From: Chaetoderma sp. LZ-2023a
Taxonomy: Eukaryota; Mollusca; Caudofoveata; Chaetodermatida; Chaetodermatidae
Direction: 5' to 3'
DNA: 64,000 bases
Assembly (NCBI GenBank): GCA_034401795.1
Contig: CM067360.1
Location: 119,978,109-120,042,108, forward strand
Shown here: piece after piece, positions 1 through 45,320 of the stretch
Layout of the letters: each line of letters starts with the position of its first letter
How positions within the stretch are numbered: position 1 is the stretch's first letter
Made by a program: the position numbers and the translations under genes
The notes under the pieces: generated by a model
Seen by the model: the letters and a program-made list of their open reading frames with translations, nothing else
Database searches by the model: none
What the model was told of the DNA's origin: nothing

Positions 1-45
1 AAAACGCACGTCCAGCGTCGTCTGCTCGGCTGATTTGGGACAGAG

Positions 46-3000
46 GTGACAATATCCCAGGTTGAAGGCAAGACAAACGTGGTCCCATTGACTGGTAGAG
101 CATCTTCTATCATACACGAATCATATGCAGCATCAACCATTGACGAGAGTAATGAAACCATGCGACGTGTTAGACTGATGGGATCTATGATTAATCAAAC
201 AATTACAGATATTGATCAACCATCAGATGTGCATCCAGAACCGTCCAGTTTAGACCTTGAACAGCTTGAAATAGATGTGCCAGATGCATTGAAACATCTT
301 ATTTCATGTATCTATTCTGAACCTCGTAGTAAATCTGCCAAGTTGAAAAATAAACTTAAGATGGTATCTGTATGTAATGTTATCATGCAAGCTGCTGTTG
401 GAAAGCAATCATTTGTATCACCACTGCTTTTGTCCATTGGTGTGTTCATCCACCAGTCTACCCGCTCCCGTGTGATCATAGATATGCTCTCATCCCTGGG
501 ACTCAGTGCTTCCTATGGCCAGGTAATTGCATTTCAGAGATCTGCAGTTGGAAGCACATCCGTTGAAGACCCGTGTCCTGGGCTCGTGGAGAAGAAGGAT
601 GGAGGGGGGTTCTGTCAATGGGTAGCTGACAATTTTGATTACAACGAGGACACGAGTTCTGGTCACGATACAACGCATGTGATGGGGATCATTTCGTGTC
701 AAACAATGGCATCAACCGAAAGCAGGGCTAACCCAGTTGTGGCAATATGTCGTAACACTATAACTGCTGATGAGATCAAAGAAGCTGGTGAGTTTGGGAG
801 CTTCATGCTACCCTACACGTCTTCTAATACATCCCTAATGGCAGATGTAAGGATAAAGACCATTAACCCCATCAGCTTACATATTGCTATGCACGGTCAA
901 TTAGACACATTGTGGTTGTACTCTAGCCTTCTCACAAGGCAGCCACACCTCTGACAGGGGTTCATGTCTGAAATAACGACATGCAACAATTGCCACTGCA
1001 CGGCAGTAGTTTACAACCCTATGGTACCTTTGAATGAAGCTGTATATAGTAACATGATGTATGTGCAGTCCCAATCCCTAAAGGCAGGACTGTGGTGCGC
1101 AACCATAATATGTGACTAGCCATTGTACTTAAGCTACACAATTAAGTAAGACACTCATCCACGTTTTAGGAACATGTATATAAGGCTGGGTAGCTTCCAT
1201 CAACTAATGTCCTTTCTTGGAGCGGGCTGTAAGATTATGGAGGGGAGTGGGATCGATGATTTGTGGCAACCGTGTATGCTAGGAATTCCCTACCTAGGAT
1301 AATGGAGGGAAAAGCTTACACACAGACATTAAGAGCATGCCTCCTTACAGATGCCGCATTGCATCTTTTGCTAATTCAACCCGATGTTGATATAATTTCT
1401 CTACAAGGCAGTGCTGCAGACAACACACCCAGCAGTACATATGGTGAATCTGAATTTGCAGGGCTGCAAGATGAAGAAAGTGATGTTGATCCTGATAGCG
1501 ATGACGCTTCGGATGAGCAAACAACCGAAACATAAACATGCTGTGAAAGTCACACACATATGTCAACGGATGATATGTGGTCAGAGCTGCGCAATTTATA
1601 CGATGCTATTATGTCACATGATATTTCAGCAGACGATGTTTGTGGCAATGACCATTTGCAAGACCTATGTAAGCAAGTTTCTAATTTGAAGGAAAACGTA
1701 GAACTGGTAAATTGTGGTCGTTGTTCATGGAATTTGTCGCCATTGTACGATTGTTCATCAGGGCTGAGCGTACTGGTAATTGGCTCCTTCATTTAAAGGC
1801 GACACAACTAATGTTGCCATTCTTTGCTGCTCCAGGGCACAACAATTACACAAAGTGTTGTCGCCTTTGCCTCCAAGATTCTGATGATCTATGTACTTGT
1901 CTGGATGGTCCCATGCACGAAGGGCACTTTGATGTACGCAGGAATGCTAAACTGTATTCGAGTGGTGCCTGGTCTGATATGACAATTGAACATAGTCTAA
2001 TGGGAGCTGGGACGACACAGGGTGGATTGATCAATATAACGCACAAGGAATCCGCTAGAACAAAATGGCATCTCACTGCACACATCATAGCACAGTACAC
2101 ACACGCTCTGCGGTCATTGACTGACACGTTCACCGGGACACGGTCGGAAGAACACAGAGATGTTCACCATGCAAATATGAGACGAGATGTAGAAGACATG
2201 ACGAAATTCACTCTGTTTCTCAGAGAACACAATCCATTCGCAGTTGAAGACGACCAACTGATAAATATCGCAACTGGTTTGATTGCAGACGATCCTGTTA
2301 CTGCCGCTGATGCCATTGATATTGGTCGAAGAATTCATGAGAAGTTAAATGAGAAAAGGTTTGGTGGCATTACGCTAAAGAAAGCAGATCAAGCTGTAAC
2401 ATTTGCTGTCATGCAACAGGTAGTTAAAGTAGGAAATGAAGATGTCCATATGTCTTCCCAGGAGCTGTACCATCGCTTAATGTCAACTGCATCTGTTTCA
2501 GGCCCTCCAGACAAAGCGATCTTTGAATACGAGCTTGCAACGGTATGTCCCGCCCTCTTCCACGATGACGGAACTATGAGGAAATCGCAAAAGTCACAAC
2601 TGGCGAAGTATATAATTGAAATAAACACATCTATGCTACATCAAGAGACAACATAGCCAGCTGCAAGAGTATTTGATGGCTGCGCACTTTTGCATCGGAT
2701 ACCATGGCCTAAAGTTGGATCAATGGAGACCGTTTGTAGCTCATTCGTAGCATCAGCAGTACATTATCAGAGGCGTGATGCGCCTGTATGCGTTATATTT
2801 GATAACTATCAAACTGAGACCACAAAAGATCAAGTACGGAAGCGACGACGACTTAATCAAGTTGGCGCTCCTGATGTAGCTGTCAAAGACAACACACCTG
2901 TTCCAGGAAACAAAACTGGATTTCTATCAAACAAACGCAACAAGCAGAATACCATAACTCTGTTGGCAACACATTTATCAGATGCAGGTGTTGAGGTGGT

Positions 3001-3811
3001 ACATGCTGTAGATGAAGGCGATGCTGAGGTGGTGATTGTAAGGAGAGCATTAGAATTGGCAGGAACTGAAAGAAAAACGATAGTTGTTGCTGATGATACA
3101 GACATATTGATCTTACTCCTCTATCAGGCAAGCACCTCTGCACATAGTTTCCTACACCAAAGCAACATAAGCTATGCATCAAAGTGGCCACAGATATCTT
3201 AGGCAAAGAATTGTGTATGTGCCTGCCATTCGTCCATAGTATGTCTGGATGTGACACGGCATCAGCTGTATATGGTATGGGCAAAGTAAAGCATATGAAC
3301 ATGACCCACTCTTCACCAACCCTCAGACAAGATGTACTTGCATTTGGCGACATCTCCAGATCAAAGGGAGATATAATGGTTATTCGTGAAAAGTACATTA
3401 AGTCTTTGCATAGTGCTGGATCAAGAAGTCCTGGCTTAGACAATCTCAGATACATGACTGCCATCTCTCCTAAGCATGTACCAGTTTGAAAGGATGCCAC
3501 CCACACGTAGGGCAGCATGCTTCCATAGCCTTCGGGTTCATCTTCAAGCAAGCACATGGCTTCACCTAAAAACTGTGTTAAAGAAAGAAGAGTATGGTTA
3601 TGCAGTAGAACAAGGATGAGTGACGGCGATCATTACGGACAAGTCAGCAGCGCCTCCGGAGATACTTCTAAATATAAGGTGGCAGTGTAAAAGCAGCACG
3701 CGTCTGAGTTCCTCGTGTAGTTGCTCCAAGAAAGGCATTCCCTGTAGCACACATTGTAAATGTGAAGGTCACTGCCGTAACAGCTCGAAATTTGAAAGTG
3801 ATAATGCATAG
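46..3811 (+). pseudogene. Decayed copy 1 of a FEN-like nuclease / CXC-cluster gene family
   Basis: This is a near full-length but broken copy of a multicopy invertebrate family of unknown function. Recognisable blocks in order: an N-terminal part (46-954) with VADNFDYNEDTSSGHDT; GSFHQLMSFLGAG near 1189; RAERTGNWLLHLKATQLMLP (about 1760-1810) within a 314-residue frame ending at 2656; a nuclease part (2657-3489); and a cysteine cluster (3620-3811, CSCSKKGIPCSTHCKCEGHC). The nuclease part resembles FEN1/XPG: CVIFDNYQTETTKD resembles the FEN VFDG...K block, DEGDAEVV resembles the EAEA block, VVADDTDILILLLY resembles the second acidic pair, and SGCDTASAVYGMGK resembles the GCDY...GIGPK helical-turn block. 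The frame changes several times and an in-frame stop separates the 314-residue part from the nuclease part, so it is not functional as read. The nuclease role is inferred from motifs. Whether the family is a host gene or a mobile-element gene is not shown here. Family membership is strong; function is tentative. Confidence 0.8.
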
Positions 3812-5966: not shown

Positions 5967-6866
<900 letters not shown>

Positions 6867-6944
6867 CACACACACACGAATGCACGCCCGCACGCCCGCA
6901 CGGCCGTACGCACGCACTTACGCACGCACTTACGCACGCACTTA

Positions 6945-7000
<56 letters not shown>

Positions 7001-7336
7001 CACATCTGAACGAATGCACGAATGCATGCAATAACACCTGCACACAGTAATACATGCACGAATGCACGCAATAATGCATGCATGAATGCATGCACGAACG
7101 AACGCACGAATGCATGCACGCACACACCCACGCACTAATGTACTCACGAATTAATGCACCCACACCCACATACACACACGCACACATACACCCGCGCAAG
7201 TATAGATGCACACACGTGCGGATGTACGAGCACACCCCCACACACATACACACATACGAACAAACGCCCGGACGCACGAACGAACGAACGAACGCACGCA
7301 CGAACGAACGCACGCACGCACGTACGCACACATACT
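6867..7336. repeat. Degenerate (ACGC)n / (CA)n microsatellite
   Basis: CACG-type tetranucleotides with interspersed AATG and CACA variants. Arg-Thr-His-Ala and Cys-Val-Arg-Ala frames on both strands are translation artefacts. The 3' end of the minus-strand Penelope-like element lies at or near its right edge. Confidence 0.95.
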
Positions 7337-7419
7337 TTTGCAGACACAAAATTAAAAGATGTCCTACGGATATGATTTCATGTTGCCCCACCATTGATTT
7401 TGGTTGGGATTAGATTTAT

Positions 7420-9786
7420 TTAAGAATAGGTAGGGAGGGATGAAACCTTGTCATTGTTATCAGGAACCATAAGGTCTAACTTTGATCTTACTAGCAAATC
7501 TTTCAGGTTTGGATTTCTATTGTAAGCTATTACTGGTCGTGCTTTGATCGGTTCCTTTAATTTAGATTGCAACTGTGAATATTCGTCTTTCATGGTTTTT
7601 GCTAATTCAACATTACGTCTATTGTATATGAGTTGAAATGGGATAATTTTGTTCTTTTGTGATATTCCCGAATCTACATTTATTCCAAATGGTGCTTTTG
7701 TTTGGAGTGTTCTAATCCAATGGCCTTCTCGGATTTTGCGAAACGAACTCGTTTCTTCCTCACTATCGAAGGTCGGAATCTGTTCTATTGGCATGATTTC
7801 AAAATGATGTTCAACTGAATGATCAGGAAGTTGGAAATGTTGAGCAATTGGCGTATCTGCTGAGGTGTTAATATCAGAAACGTGGCGTCTAGCACGCACT
7901 CTAAATGCATTTTTTGTTTCACCAACATACTGTTTCTGGCAAAGGGCACAATTGATCAAATAAACTACATTCTCAGAATCACAATGCATATTAGTTCGGA
8001 TATGATATTCATTATTAGTTTGAAAGCTCAGGAATGTTTGTTGGTTTACAATATAGTTGTTTACTTTGCATCTATTTTTGTCGCATTTAGAAACTGATCC
8101 ATCGCACATGATTGGTTTATTGTGTTTAATTTGGACAGGCTCAAACTCGGGTCCGCTATGAGGTTTTAGATTTTCAAGCTCATTGATGGTGTCTGCTTTA
8201 ATTTTTCGAAGAAAACGGGCTGAATAGCCTCGTGCTTTCAAAGCATCAAACAGAGTAGAGCATGCACTATTCAGATTTCGCCTGTTGCTAGAGTTTCGAA
8301 AAAATCTTATGATTTGCGATTTGATCAAACCTTTAAATGTGTGTGGAGGATGAAATGATTTTTTGTGAAGCAGCTGATGTGAGTCTGTTGGCTTAAAGAA
8401 TACTTTATATTCTAATTTTCCAGAGGAATCAAATTGAGGACCCTTATAGATCGTGACATCTAAAAAGTCAACAGATGTTCCACTAATAGTAGCTTTTAGC
8501 TTGGTATTTGAATCTTGGTTATTTAAAATGCGGAAAAATTCCCAAAAGTCTTCTTCTGAATGTTGCCAAACTATGAAGATGTCATCTAGATATCTGAGGT
8601 AAAGAAGAGGCTTTTTGGTTGATTTGTTCAGTGCCTCCACTTCCCACTCCGCAACATAAATCGTGGCAAAATTTGGGCTGAATCGTTTACCCATTGCGCA
8701 TCCACAGATTTGAAGGTAATTTTCACCATTAAATTGGAAATCGTTTCCTTTAAGACTTAGCTCTAATAATTTTAGAATTTCCGTGTCTGGTCGATCTGGA
8801 TCAGGAAATTTGACAAAAGAATTCTTAATAGCATTGACTCCAGCATCAATATCTATATTGGTATACATAGCATCTATGTCTAATGTGACTAAATATGCAT
8901 CTTTCGGAACTGACAATTTGGATAACTTTGAAAGAAAGTGTTCAGTGTTCTTGAGAAAGCTCTTGTGTCTATTAGCAATGGGCTTTAAATAGTAATCAAT
9001 ATATTCTGAAATGCCATAAGACTCACTGCCACAGTCTGAAATGATGGGTCGTCCAGGAGGTGTCAATGGATCTAACCAGGTGCTGATAGGTTTATGGATT
9101 TTAGGCAAGATATAAAATGTCCGATTTTGTGGATTATTCTCACCTAGCAGATACTTTAGCTGTTTCTTATCGATGTACTTATCTGTATGCAATGAATTAA
9201 GTATTTCAATGAAATTTTGTCGGTTTTGAGGCCAAATTAAATTATCAAGTTTTCTGTAATGCCTGGTGTTAGTTAACTGCCTTTCGGCCTCGCGGATGTA
9301 GTTTTCTCTAGACATAATCACAGTTGCTGAACCTTTATCGGCTGGTTTTATAATAATATTTTGATTTCTACGTAATTTGTTGATAGCCTGTTGTTCGAGA
9401 AATGAAAGGTTTTGCTTATTGTTTGTAACTGGCAATGATCTGGCTATACCAGCAACCGTTTTTATGGTTGCTTTAACATTGTCATCAACTAGCCTATCTG
9501 GAGGGTCCCAACCGGAGTTTCCAGTGAATGGTTTTGACTCTCCATTTAAATTTCGAAAATGATGGGCTATTTTTACTGAATGACCAAAATTAGCTACTTC
9601 AATAAGACCTGTGTCTAAAAGCAAATCTAATCCTGTTTTTGGTTTTGGAGTTGGTATAAAAGTAAGACCACGATCGAGAATTGATTTTTCAGATGGTGAG
9701 AGATCATAGTCAGCTGCTAAATTGACAAGGTTTGTTCCTAATCCTATGTTAGGGGAGCTATTGCCTTGACCCACATTTAGTTTAAA
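7420..9786 (-). CDS. PLE ORF2: reverse transcriptase with C-terminal GIY-YIG endonuclease
   Basis: This is the replication enzyme of the element: it should nick target DNA and copy the element RNA into it. Residues are numbered from the GTG at 9774. RT motifs: KPADKGSATVIM at 143-154, PKIHKP at 224-229, GRPIISD at 241-247, catalytic DxD in LVTLDIDAMYTNI (D299, D301), MGKRFSPNFA at 361-370, and YLDD at 395-398. A cysteine-rich linker (C557, C564, C569, C598) precedes the GIY-YIG domain: VVYLINCALCQKQYVG at 603-618 carries C609 and C612 between the two half-motifs, then RVRARRH (625-631), E683 and a WIRTLQTKAPFGINV tail. The frame is open from 9786, overlapping the end of ORF1. Its first methionine is about residue 154, inside the RT, so an independent AUG start is unlikely; -1 frameshifting from ORF1 fits. 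No premature stops. Confidence 0.93.
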   Translation of the reverse strand, partial: FKLNVGQGNSSPNIGLGTNLVNLAADYDLSPSEKSILDRGLTFIPTPKPKTGLDLLLDTGLIEVANFGHSVKIAHHFRNLNGESKPFTGNSGWDPPDRLVDDNVKATIKTVAGIARSLPVTNNKQNLSFLEQQAINKLRRNQNIIIKPADKGSATVIMSRENYIREAERQLTNTRHYRKLDNLIWPQNRQNFIEILNSLHTDKYIDKKQLKYLLGENNPQNRTFYILPKIHKPISTWLDPLTPPGRPIISDCGSESYGISEYIDYYLKPIANRHKSFLKNTEHFLSKLSKLSVPKDAYLVTLDIDAMYTNIDIDAGVNAIKNSFVKFPDPDRPDTEILKLLELSLKGNDFQFNGENYLQICGCAMGKRFSPNFATIYVAEWEVEALNKSTKKPLLYLRYLDDIFIVWQHSEEDFWEFFRILNNQDSNTKLKATISGTSVDFLDVTIYKGPQFDSSGKLEYKVFFKPTDSHQLLHKKSFHPPHTFKGLIKSQIIRFFRNSSNRRNLNSACSTLFDALKARGYSARFLRKIKADTINELENLKPHSGPEFEPVQIKHNKPIMCDGSVSKCDKNRCKVNNYIVNQQTFLSFQTNNEYHIRTNMHCDSENVVYLINCALCQKQYVGETKNAFRVRARRHVSDINTSADTPIAQHFQLPDHSVEHHFEIMPIEQIPTFDSEEETSSFRKIREGHWIRTLQTKAPFGINVDSGISQKNKIIPFQLIYNRRNVELAKTMKDEYSQLQSKLKEPIKARPVIAYNRNPNLKDLLVRSKLDLMVPDNNDKVSSLPTYS
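9726..9768 (-). promoter_or_regulatory. Candidate stimulatory stem-loop downstream of the slippery site
   Basis: In RNA sense, CAAGG (9768-9764) can pair with CCUUG (9730-9726), enclosing an inner hairpin CCUAA (9753-9749) with UUAGG (9741-9737). It begins 11 nucleotides after the heptamer, slightly more than the usual 5-9. The stems are short, so the structure is only plausible. Confidence 0.4.
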
Positions 9787-11483
9787 CTAAGTACCGTCAA
9801 CCAATGGTTATAAATACAATTAGCTGTTTCTTTCGTCCAATGTATTCTATCCTTCTCAACATGAAAATTCGCATCAGAAATTTTGGGGATGACCTTATCA
9901 ACGTGGCAGTTGGACCTTGCTGATTCGTTGATACGCTTGAGACAGTACCTTTGCCTGTCTGACAAGCTATCAGAGAAGTTAATCTCAGCAAAGTGCAACT
10001 CCGCATTAGGGAAGGTGTTTTTAAATTCACGAGCCATGAACCGTAAATGGCTTGAGGCTTTGGTTGGATGCTCATTTTTGGAGTTGATGCCAATATTCAA
10101 GATGATCTTCTCCGGGCTAGGGCCATCCTGGTGTCGCATAGCCATTGTTCTGAAATGTGATAATGCGGCACCAGGATAGCACTCAACCTGGATGTCAGGA
10201 TGGACATCTAAATCAATTCGGGCTAGATTAGAGGACCCTATCATCAGAATCTTTTTGGTGATTCTGGGGATCCTCCACAGGCCCTTGCTATGCGATTGAT
10301 GACGGTACTTAGCAAACTTCCTGTCAGACAGGTTACTATTATTCTCCATAGGAGGGAGAGGAGGTGGAGACAGAAGAAGAGGAGCAGAAGAAGGTGCGTG
10401 AGGAGAAGAGAGAGGAAGCGTAGGAGGAAGAGGAGGAGGAGGGATGGAGAGAGGAGATGCAAGAGGAGAAGATTGAGTATGAGGAGCAAGAGGCGGGATT
10501 GAGAGAGGAGATGCATAAAGAGAAGAAGGTTGAGGAGGAAGAGGAGGAGGCGGGATTGAGAGAGGAGATGCATGAAGAGAAGAAGTTTGAGGAGGAAGAG
10601 GAGGAGGCGGGATTGAGAGAGGAGAAGGAGGAAGAGGAGAAGATCGAGTCAGAAGGTGGCGAGGAGAAGATAGTGGAAGAGATGAGGAAGAGTTGCTAGG
10701 TGGTAGATTGGGGGAACAGTGAGTAACAACCCGACAACGGCGCACAGGAGGAGAATTTGTCTTTGGGAGAGCCGGCCATGACTCTGTTACATCATCAACA
10801 CCAGGTGCTGGTGTTGGTGATGTATACAGATTCGTCCGCTTGGAAGTGGTAGGCGAGGGTGTGAAGGTAGTTGGTGACCGTTGTCGTTTGTTAGTCATTG
10901 TTGAATGATAACCTGAACCTGTACTCGGTGTGGCCGCCGGTGTTGGTAGAGACATCACTCTATTTTGCTTATCACTAGCTATTTCTGCCAACAATTTCCA
11001 AAAATTTGTGATTGTCGTTGTGGCCAATTTATTTTCAAAATTGTGCCTACCCCATTTTAATGCTATGCCTTTGGCTCTGTCTAGATCAAGAATTACATTA
11101 GATTCGGCCACTTTTACCTCTGCCTTTAATGTGTCCAATTTGCTTCGATAATGGTTGATTACATTTTCTAAGCAGCTATGAGCCCAAATTTGGTTTATCA
11201 TGCTGGTCGATTTAAAAAATTCGTCATCTCGTAAGGCAGGGCAGAAAAACGAGTTCATCTCCTCCATTTTCATGCTGAGAGATTTCGGGAGAGAGTCTGA
11301 TGCCAAATGCTCTCGTAAAAGACCATAGTGATGCAAGCATTGCAACACATGGAAGTACATCTTAACCAGTCTCTGAAAGGCCTGAACAGACTGGTTAGGA
11401 GCACTTTTGGTTGAAGAAAAGTTGGACGCTGGGTTGCCAGATTTGCGTCCTTTACCCACTGGGCCGTTGAAATTCTTGGCCAT
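9777..11483 (-). CDS. PLE ORF1: helical N-domain, Ser/Pro linker and SGNH-hydrolase domain
   Basis: 568 residues starting at an ATG with good context (A at -3, G at +4). Residues about 30-185 are predicted mostly helical by eye (FQRLVKMYFHVLQCLHHYGL; SKLDTLKAEVKVAESNVI). Residues about 190-400 form a Ser/Thr/Pro-rich linker with repeated SPLSIPPPPLPPQ units. Residues 410-568 fit an SGNH/GDSL hydrolase: ILMIGSSNLARI (block I; likely nucleophile S418), CYPGAALSHF (block II glycine), LNIGINSKN (block III, N467), and KDRIHWT (block V, D545 and H548). So all four blocks are present. Esterase-like domains are known in ORF1 of CR1-type LINEs and in some telomeric PLE-associated ORFs; here the domain sits directly upstream of a GIY-YIG-bearing PLE. 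Its substrate is unknown. ORF1 may be expressed alone or as the N-terminus of a frameshift fusion with ORF2. Confidence 0.88.
   Translation of the reverse strand: MAKNFNGPVGKGRKSGNPASNFSSTKSAPNQSVQAFQRLVKMYFHVLQCLHHYGLLREHLASDSLPKSLSMKMEEMNSFFCPALRDDEFFKSTSMINQIWAHSCLENVINHYRSKLDTLKAEVKVAESNVILDLDRAKGIALKWGRHNFENKLATTTITNFWKLLAEIASDKQNRVMSLPTPAATPSTGSGYHSTMTNKRQRSPTTFTPSPTTSKRTNLYTSPTPAPGVDDVTESWPALPKTNSPPVRRCRVVTHCSPNLPPSNSSSSLPLSSPRHLLTRSSPLPPSPLSIPPPPLPPQTSSLHASPLSIPPPPLPPQPSSLYASPLSIPPLAPHTQSSPLASPLSIPPPPLPPTLPLSSPHAPSSAPLLLSPPPLPPMENNSNLSDRKFAKYRHQSHSKGLWRIPRITKKILMIGSSNLARIDLDVHPDIQVECYPGAALSHFRTMAMRHQDGPSPEKIILNIGINSKNEHPTKASSHLRFMAREFKNTFPNAELHFAEINFSDSLSDRQRYCLKRINESARSNCHVDKVIPKISDANFHVEKDRIHWTKETANCIYNHWLTVLSLN
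9780..9786 (-). promoter_or_regulatory. -1 ribosomal frameshift slippery heptamer UUUAAAC
   Basis: The last ORF1 codons read AGT TTA AAC TAA, giving U UUA AAC in exact X XXY YYZ phase with the stop immediately after. Slipping back one base continues as CTA AAT GTG GGT, which is the ORF2 frame. ORF2 has a stop (9787-9789) just upstream of the heptamer and no early AUG. UUUAAAC is one of the classical -1 slippery sequences. Function is inferred. Confidence 0.75.
10330..10690 (-). repeat. Purine-rich minisatellite encoding the Pro/Ser repeats of ORF1
   Basis: GGAGGAAGAGGAGGAGG-type units of about 60 bases on the plus strand encode repeated LSIPPPPLPP-rich segments of ORF1. The Glu/Arg-rich and Leu-rich frames over this stretch are shadows. 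Confidence 0.85.
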
Positions 11484-11650
11484 TTTAGAACGTAATCAAA
11501 TTTCTACAGATTTATGTCAAATTTAGTCAGAAAAGTTCAAAAAAGTTAACTACCAAATATTAACTAGAGCGATATGTGTTGAAACAATTTAGAGACTGAA
11601 AAATAAGAACAATTAATACAAGATTATTATATATATATAAAATTAAAGCT

Positions 11651-11834
<184 letters not shown>

Positions 11835-11951
11835 TCTTCATCTCACACATCAAATATGCTATCATGTCTGCAATGATAAACAGACTACATACTAGCAAGT
11901 AAAAGGCAAACGTCTGATTGACAAATACAGATTATGGCAAGACACTACCTA
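11835..11951 (+). repeat. Block C repeat, right half of the split copy
   Basis: Contains ATGCTATCATGTCTGC, CAGACTACATACTAG and CAAATACAGATTATGGCAAG. It matches 31345-31510 and 47085-47170, where the same sequence follows the left half directly. Confidence 0.72.
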
Positions 11952-43899: not shown

Positions 43900-45320
43900 T
43901 CAGTCCTTCTTCGCTTTTGCCCACTGTGTCTTGTCCTCAGACGAAATCCTTAGCTCCCTCATGTCCATTCTTGACTTGAGGGTACCGAGTCCTGCTTTCT
44001 TGCCGTCACCTCGTATCCCGCTTAGCCGATTTATGCAACGACGTCCTCCCCTGTCTTTGTAGGGAGAATTCCAAGGCGCTCTGTGCTGGTTCTCTTCTGG
44101 CATCCTTAGCATATGGCTAACTATGGGCCATCTTTACTGGACGACTTTTACAGAAAGCGGCGACGAATTACACACCTTGCATAGTGCGCCATTGGAAAGT
44201 ATGCTGTCTGGCCATCGGTATACAGTGATGATGCGTAGTTGTTTGCGGTGCCAGGCATCGAGTTTGTCTAGTGGAGCCGTTGCGGCTGGCCACCTGCTAC
44301 AGCTATACATCATCAAGGATACGCAGGTTGCATTGCATATACGTAGCCGTTTATTCAAGGGAAGGGCATCTTTGATCCACGAATTCATAGCTTCCAGACG
44401 AACTGGACAGCTATGTTCCCCATGACGCAGCGTGCATAAATGTCAGCAATACTGCAGAGCAGGGAGACCAGGATTGTACTCTTCCTCTATGGTTCATCGC
44501 CACGAGCTGGATCGTCATTTTCTGTACTTCCATGCTTCGTAGACAGGTATATGTGGGTGATCTCGGTTTTAAATTAATTTGTAAAGATATTCTCAATTTG
44601 CAGGTTGCTTGTGACTATTGTGAGATAGACCATCTCCCGTTGGGAAGACGATTAACGTCTCAAACTCTACGTACTTCACTGACTGGACTTGAAATCTTAG
44701 CTTGGTGTCTGCAAGCAATAGTCTCACTAGTCGTAGCTCATTTGGATTGCAGCTGGCCTGGTGTAGTATATCTAGGAGCTTTGAGCATGTAATTGTGTCG
44801 AAGGCTCGTGGTATGTCAATGACCCTTTTGTGGAAATCCCTGTGTCTGGGCATGACCACCTACACAAGCATGCGTTGAGCCCATACATGTGCTGCGTAGC
44901 TGCGTTCAATTTCTAAGTCAGTTTGACATGCTCCGGTGAAGTCACAGATCTTGTCTTGGATAGGATTTTCCGTATACTGTTGAGGAGTGCAATGGGTCGC
45001 AGATTGGCTGGGCGACCAGGTGGCTTCTTAGGATTGGGTAGTGCGATAAGTGTGCCTTGGCATACAGCGTCCATGGGAAGATGGTGCATAAAAGCTGAAT
45101 TGAGTTGGTGTGTTATCGGTTTTGTGATACTGCCACTTGCATATTTAAATAGTTCATTGCGCATGCCATCAACTCCAACTGCACGTCCATTGTGCAGGGC
45201 GTTAAGTGACTTCTCACCTTCTGCTGCTCTAATTGGTGTTAGTAATGGCCTGCGGTCTCCTGAAATGGGTGTAGGGGCTACTCTCGTGGTCAGTGAACTG
45301 TTCCTTGGACAATTCTAGAA
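43900..45320 (-). pseudogene. Decayed LINE reverse transcriptase
   Basis: Non-LTR RT remains in order on the minus strand: GTLIALPNPKKPPGRPANLR then PIALLNSIRKIL (45164-44913), motif A-like IDIPRAFDTI and motif B-like FPTGDGLSHN (44859-44593), then the RT C-terminal segment LDAWHRKQLRIITVYRWPDS (44388-44134) and HMLRMPEENQHRAPW (44112-43900). Several frame changes separate them. I do not see an apurinic endonuclease or ORF1. The clade is uncertain. It lies between the two large duplication units. Confidence 0.75.

Follow-up and report, generated by a model that had tools for sequence, protein, structure and literature searches.

The reverse transcriptase of a Penelope-like element

The locus raises the question of how the reverse transcriptase (RT) of a Penelope-like element (PLE) is produced when the first Met of its reading frame lies far inside the coding region. 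PLEs are usually described by their RT/endonuclease open reading frame (ORF), and to our knowledge the production and packaging of the PLE RT have been little studied. In the window, which is the whole 64,000-nucleotide stretch of DNA analysed here, the list of open reading frames contains two overlapping open frames on the minus strand at 7420-11483, and production of the RT appears to depend on a one-base backward slip of the ribosome at the sequence UUUAAAC. The features of the element and its surroundings are as follows.

6303-6677, no strand: (TCTG)n microsatellite adjoining the 3' end of the copy
6676-11657, minus: copy of the element in the window, truncated at its 5' end (blastn against other copies)
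6676-7419, minus: 3' untranslated region with CACG/GTGC-type microsatellites
7420-9786, minus: ORF2, 788 codons between stops, frame -1 with respect to that of ORF1
7699-7968, minus: GIY-YIG endonuclease, ORF2 residues 607-696 (Pfam GIY-YIG)
7939-8109, minus: Cys-rich segment between RT and endonuclease
8497-8931, minus: RT core, ORF2 residues 286-430, YLDD at 399-402 (Pfam RVT_1)
9752-9772, minus: weak, non-significant candidate for a stimulatory hairpin, 7 nt downstream of the heptamer
9777-11483, minus: ORF1, 568 aa plus UAA stop, ATG at 11483
9780-9786, minus: slippery heptamer U UUA AAC in the ORF1 frame, directly before the UAA (9777-9779)
9780-10283, minus: SGNH hydrolase domain, ORF1 residues 401-568
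10284-10943, minus: Pro/Ser-rich linker, ORF1 residues 181-400, with an internal tandem repeat of a 57-bp unit
10944-11483, minus: conserved N-terminal domain, ORF1 residues 1-180 (cross-family identity)
11484-11657, minus: residual 5' leader upstream of ORF1
11680-11837, no strand: (TC)n microsatellite adjoining the 5' end of the copy

ORF2 encodes an RT and a GIY-YIG endonuclease and has no early start codon

An earlier note on this DNA had described an intact element with two uninterrupted frames. Both frames are indeed open where it placed them (ORF1 at 11483-9777 and ORF2 at 9786-7420, minus strand), but the copy itself lacks upstream sequence. Comparison by blastn showed that the window and the other copies have sequence in common up to 11657, with about 99% identity on the ORF side, and that the window matches the copy at locus L034 with 98.1% identity across about 6670-11657. 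The L034 unit extends 1664 bp further upstream of the point at which the window copy begins, and at least the 3' part of this region was matched in 26 of the 29 other loci examined, with no more than about 1.33 kb of it present in any locus other than L034. Two loci (L014 and L026) had no match of more than 100 bases to L034 in the upstream region, and L022 had only a weak match, though its last bases before the junction were identical. Since upstream sequence is present in most of the other loci examined, the window copy is 5'-truncated at 11657; full-length units measure about 6.6 kb. A hammerhead ribozyme was considered for the 3' end of this upstream sequence and dropped, as Rfam returned none. 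The Rfam search around the element gave 16 weak matches (E-values up to 5), all far below the gathering scores and mostly within microsatellites.

The combination of an RT with a C-terminal GIY-YIG domain, read from motifs in the earlier note, was borne out by profile searches. ORF2 matched Pfam RVT_1 with an E-value of 2.8e-6 (27.6 bits against a cut-off of 29.6), and the whole of ORF2 matched GIY-YIG with an E-value of 3.8e-4 (21.1 bits, just below the cut-off of 22.6), while its C-terminal 250 aa alone scored 23.0 bits, above that cut-off. These were the only two Pfam families matched at E-values up to 1, and no AP-type endonuclease was found among them. We take the motifs KPADKG and YLDDIF of ORF2 to be PLE-like. 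Five cysteines of ORF2 (C568, C573, C602, C613 and C616) are invariant across four families of the element. Neptune-like PLEs are characterised, according to the available portions of PMC3846280, by a cysteine-rich stretch that separates the RT from the endonuclease, and ORF2 carries such a Neptune-type segment, an assignment made from this description.

In the window's ORF2 no Met precedes residue 158, which lies beyond the conserved IIKPADKGSATV motif. Residues 1-157 share 49-51% identity with those of three other families and are therefore coding; with no AUG before codon 158, they must be reached either from ORF1 or from a non-AUG start. The earlier note overlooked this missing start codon and thus passed over the mode of translation of ORF2, which we regard as the more unusual feature of the element.

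A slippery heptamer lies at the ORF1/ORF2 junction

In the sense of the element, ORF1 ends with CTT AGT TTA AAC TAA. In the -1 frame a TAG stands immediately before the TTT of the heptamer, and ORF2 is open exactly from the heptamer onwards. The two frames overlap by ten bases, which leaves room for one codon-pair position, and the TTTAAAC found there is an in-frame X XXY YYZ heptamer within a 0/-1 overlap. UUUAAAC is the slippery sequence of coronaviruses, read as U UUA AAC. Canonical heptamers occur at 95 of the 64,000 minus-strand positions of the window (TTTAAAC at 7 of them), so that the probability of meeting one by chance at the single possible junction position is about 0.0015. From the codon use of the window's ORFs, TTA AAC is expected for a Leu-Asn pair at a frequency of 0.088.

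The heptamer is conserved in seven families

To survey related elements, an RT-motif pattern in which GAT replaces the GAC of the window family was searched in the element's own genome (2.44 Gb), yielding 2120 matches (reversed control, 0); a second RT-motif pattern gave 7 matches and a third 1252 (controls, 0). TTTAAACTRR was present upstream in 26 of the 37 loci examined from the first two patterns. All 25 pattern loci with a tblastn match beginning at ORF2 residue 1 had the heptamer, a count that leans slightly in its favour because the FKL residues encoded by the heptamer help the match to begin at residue 1. Among the 11 loci without it, five (L040, L046, L051, L058 and L075) have matches confined to a portion of ORF2 and look like truncated or rearranged copies, and six (L039, L048, L052 and L061-L063) were sorted by us, at 25-45% identity, as apparently more distant PLEs.

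Grouping by RT motif and ORF2 sequence gave seven families: A, the window's own; B, C and D; E, decayed (L076 and L083); F (L086); and G (L091, L092 and the older L077). UUUAAAC is kept in all seven, which all come from this one genome and whose histories are not fully independent. The stop codon after the heptamer is UAA in families A-E and UAG in F and G. Loci L087-L090, with no TTTAAAC and no recognisable ORF1, were taken as truncated copies and were not counted as families. In ORF2, family A shares 57.3% identity with C, 58.8% with D and 59.7% with B; at four-fold sites the corresponding identities are 0.349, 0.327 and 0.314, which is near saturation. Families B, C and D lie nearer to each other, with four-fold identities of 0.46-0.54. 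In ORF1, the identity of family A to C, D and B is 36-37%.

The junction was also searched with a codon-degenerate pattern comprising every Leu, Asn and stop codon (and, through its degeneracy, also Phe and Trp codons), with the GQG motif of ORF2 required at the appropriate spacing downstream. This gave 3840 matches in the own genome (reversed control, 51), of which 3387 contained TTTAAAC (control, 1). The 453 matches without TTTAAAC exceed the roughly 50 expected by chance, so some of them are real copies. Variants include a copy of family F that reads TTAAAT and, among those listed, a copy whose stop codon is replaced by TGG. Because copies share ancestry, the evidence for conservation counts by family and not by copy. 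The first Met of ORF2 differs by family (residue 158 in A, 14 in C, 47 in D and 5 in B), while the heptamer is constant.

ORF1, ORF2 and two of the RT patterns found no relatives in a collection of viral contigs, and one RT pattern searched against a collection of genome contigs returned 3 bacterial stretches; no relative of the element outside its own genome, and no named PLE sequence, was found in these searches.

Frameshifting as the probable route to the RT

Taking the junction and its conservation together, we consider it highly probable that this is a PLE with an SGNH ORF1 whose RT is made by -1 programmed frameshifting at U UUA AAC, the most economical reading of the junction. The product of ORF1 would be a ribonucleoprotein (RNP)-type protein in which a Pro/Ser-rich linker joins the conserved N-terminal domain to an SGNH hydrolase at the C terminus. 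At the UAA most ribosomes would terminate and release the ORF1 protein, and a minority would slip by -1 on the heptamer U UUA AAC and read on through ORF2, producing a fusion of about 1354 aa (the 568 residues of ORF1 plus ORF2 residues 3-788) that would carry the RT and the GIY-YIG endonuclease. Such minority slippage would supply ORF1 protein and RT in a gag-pol-like ratio from one RNA; both the slippage and its efficiency are what we infer from the sequence. By analogy with the ORF1 protein of the zebrafish element ZfL2-1, the SGNH domain would probably act as a weak esterase and bind lipid during RNP assembly or transport, after which the endonuclease would nick the target and the RT would copy the RNA there. 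It is also likely that a whole clade of endonuclease-bearing PLEs makes an ORF1(SGNH)-RT-endonuclease fusion through a -1 frameshift at UUUAAAC, with the esterase in the place of Gag.

Among the alternatives for the junction, ORF2 might be translated separately, by re-initiation or from a non-AUG start, the heptamer being a by-product of conserved codons. The position of the ORF1 stop within a short overlap would suit this, as would the AUG at ORF2 codon 5 in some family-B copies (L042 and L056), but other copies of the same family have ACG at that codon (L055 and L060) and in the window family no AUG occurs until codon 158. Moreover, AUG positions vary while all seven bases of UUUAAAC stay, despite near-random four-fold sites (window family) and the low frequency expected for TTA AAC; separate translation is therefore improbable. 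A splicing event joining ORF1 to ORF2 would explain why ORF2 has no start of its own, and introns do occur in PLEs, one rotifer PLE having a spliceosomal intron inside its ORF (PMC3846280, available portions); the frames, however, overlap by ten bases and leave no gap to remove, and the conserved UUUAAAC with its immediate stop would be left unexplained, which makes splicing very improbable. That the window copy is a pseudogene in which a single frame was broken by an indel is hardly credible, since the one-base offset that would suggest it recurs identically, together with the heptamer, in seven families and thousands of copies, and since ORF2 is free of stops in 57 of 57 and ORF1 in 76 of 77 of the best matches listed.

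RNA structure downstream of the heptamer

Several observations weigh against frameshifting at the heptamer: the UAG of families F and G, the origin of all families in one genome, the real copies without TTTAAAC, and the RNA that follows the heptamer. In the window, no significant structure was found downstream (z = -0.07; a second test, z = -0.16 to 0.68), and a pseudoknot placed after the heptamer was equalled in 154 of 200 shuffles. Most families could form a GGGU...ACCC hairpin (inner GGU/ACC) 7 nt after the heptamer. This hairpin was borderline by RNAalifold across six families, with 10 of 200 column shuffles as good, and its pair counts were no better than those of shuffles, 246 of 500 being as high for cells paired and 178 of 500 for covariation; the alignment contains a single two-sided change. 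We do not claim a shared hairpin after the heptamer.

ORF1 carries an SGNH domain under purifying selection

ORF1 contains all four SGNH blocks noted previously, at G416-S-S418-N, P-G438-A, G465-I-N467 and D545-R-I-H548. From the SGNH block scheme, S418, D545 and H548 are predicted to be catalytic and G438 and N467 to form the oxyanion hole. Profile searches gave a divided answer: the window's ORF1 alone matched no relevant family in Pfam, NCBIfam or PHROGs, but an ORF1 homologue from another family of the own genome matched Lipase_GDSL_2 with an E-value of 1.2e-5, below Pfam's cut-off. A structure modelled from a seven-row alignment of the domain adopted a flavodoxin-like SGNH fold, and fold searches with this model returned PDB matches, which supports the assignment at the level of predicted structure. 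The solved ZfL2-1 esterase was absent from the best 50 matches of each of two fold searches, a result that excludes nothing. Sequence searches against solved structures gave no match for ORF2 or the SGNH region and one, at an E-value of 3.8 and ignored, for ORF1. The N-terminal residues 1-180 have no meaningful Pfam match and are 32-33% identical to ORF1 of three other families.

The SGNH end of ORF1 lies upstream of ORF2 in all seven families, so that the proposal of a GIY-YIG-bearing PLE lineage with an SGNH ORF1 is supported and no family was found to lack it. Together with the positive fold search, this means that both refutations suggested in the earlier note failed. In family E this end is only a decayed remnant, and ORF1 of family F contains one stop.

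We infer that the SGNH domain is an enzyme. It is unlikely to be a catalytically dead binding module of the kind found in Oskar, since S418, G438, N467, D545 and H548 are all present in the window and recur at the same alignment positions wherever a sequence from family B, C, D or G extends over them.

Selection on the domain, which the earlier note had thought probable, was supported by the comparison between families. Over the SGNH region the window is 38-44% identical to six sequences (two from family B and one each from C, D, F (partial) and G), and the catalytic blocks are kept; with synonymous sites near saturation, as measured in ORF2 for A against B, C and D, this indicates purifying selection on the SGNH protein. 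Comparison within families was less uniform. In the window family (30 loci), pN/pS was 0.19 over ORF1 as a whole and 0.13 over residues 401-568 (3 nonsynonymous and 6 synonymous changes), low values that are biased downwards because the loci were ranked by protein similarity. For the other families, whose loci were listed by chromosome position and with codons differing at more than one base left out, the ORF2 ratios were mixed: 1.31 in C (6 copies; 10 nonsynonymous, 2 synonymous), 0.26 in D (3 copies; 5 and 5) and 0.57 in B (10 copies; 168 and 78, besides 5 nonsense changes). In the final 100 codons of ORF1, C and D had no changes, and B had 19 nonsynonymous, 16 synonymous and 2 nonsense changes (ratio 0.31). 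Counts within B, C and D mix selection with neutral decay after insertion; as the within-family counts are thus mixed and partly biased, the case for selection rests on the comparison between families.

Relation to known elements

ZfL2-1 is a LINE with an AP-type endonuclease in its ORF2. The available portions of PMC3905857 report esterase-type ORF1 proteins in ZfL2-1 (CR1/L2 LINEs), RTEX and some Repbase Penelope elements, stating that the esterase occurs 'even in Penelope-like elements', and describe the solved ZfL2-1 domain with its weak esterase activity and its binding to negatively charged liposomes (Schneider et al.). Like the present ORF1 protein, that of ZfL2-1 has an N-terminal region and a linker of low conservation, followed at the C terminus by an SGNH domain in which the catalytic residues are present, whereas the present ORF2 has GIY-YIG and matched no other endonuclease family. 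GDSL ORFs also accompany the rotifer Athena PLEs (PMC5408684, available portions). An SGNH ORF1 in a PLE, which the earlier note read as gained or kept, is accordingly not new in itself. The Athena/Terminon elements likewise associate a PLE RT with a GDSL/SGNH ORF, but they are endonuclease-deficient, telomere-associated giants with GDSL in accessory ORFs (PMC5408684 and PMC6431247, available portions).

Neptune-type PLEs share with the present element the RT, the Cys-rich segment, the C-terminal GIY-YIG domain, 5' truncation and tandem copies; the present element has in addition a full SGNH ORF1 and an RT whose expression would be coupled to it through the UUUAAAC junction. The coronavirus ORF1a/1b cassette has the same heptamer in the same phase (U UUA AAC), whereas here the stop follows the heptamer directly and no significant pseudoknot was found. 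A search of the PLE literature, as far as its accessible text extends, found no description of a UUUAAAC or frameshift junction, nor do the available portions of PMC3846280, PMC5408684, PMC6431247, PMC5718144, PMC3905857 and PMC3849965 contain one; Repbase or further PLE papers may have it. What is new here would be the conserved slippery junction that probably couples an SGNH ORF1 to a PLE RT, which may be known already.

If it operates as proposed, the junction would make RT levels depend on those of the ORF1 protein and link the RT physically to the esterase module, and it would allow the expression of PLE proteins to be assayed directly with a reporter. PLEs share ancestry with telomerase RT (PMC5718144, available portions). 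A single genome carries over three thousand copies of the UUUAAAC junction signal, and the thousands of copies in at least seven families make comparative testing easy.

The element has been amplified recently

At least 77 full-length copies of ORF1, the window's included, were found among the best candidates listed, 76 of them without an internal stop, and at least 57 copies of ORF2 close to the window's (its own included) among the best candidates listed, all 57 fully open. An exact 30-base piece of ORF2 occurs 714 times in the own genome (control, 0). The median difference among 30 loci examined was 0.25%; these were top-ranked loci and the true spread is wider. From this median the burst of amplification appears recent, and the element is, judged by its sequence, a young, highly amplified and recently active Penelope-like retrotransposon. 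Array copies are spaced about 6.6 kb apart, with 99.6% identity over 3.4 kb between two neighbouring units; together with the truncated copy in the window, these arrays display the PLE trait of tandem and 5'-truncated copies.

Upstream region and genomic copies

The full-length unit of the window family (locus L034) carries a region that is missing from the window copy:

L034:1965-3628, 1664 bp: upstream region of the full-length unit

This region, which is probably the promoter region, contains internal repeats of about 125 bp as well as TATAAATA, and a CAGTTGC/GCAACTG inverted repeat lies close to its end. Elsewhere in the genome, two ORF2 copies among the best matches listed (G000:C13:84116647 and 84120072) are spaced by 3.4 kb, less than a full unit, and probably represent a tandem of a truncated copy and a longer one. 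More distant lineages were also present:

L039, L048, L052 and L061-L063, same genome as the window: distant PLE lineages, YIDD replacing YLDD

The UUUAAAC junction was not found in the examined flank of these loci. The PLE load of the 2.44-Gb Chaetoderma genome is very large; two RT-motif patterns gave 2120 and 1252 matches (counts that overlap slightly, a few places fitting both), and their reversed versions gave 0.

Other frames within the window

Two further features were recorded, neither matching Pfam at 0.01:

34-3486, + strand: several long frames in succession, all broken (306, 323, 181 and 113 aa)
44916-45314, − strand: short frame containing GVDGMRNELFKYA

The former looks like a decayed gene or mobile element, and GVDGMRNELFKYA in the latter is LINE-RT-like wording.
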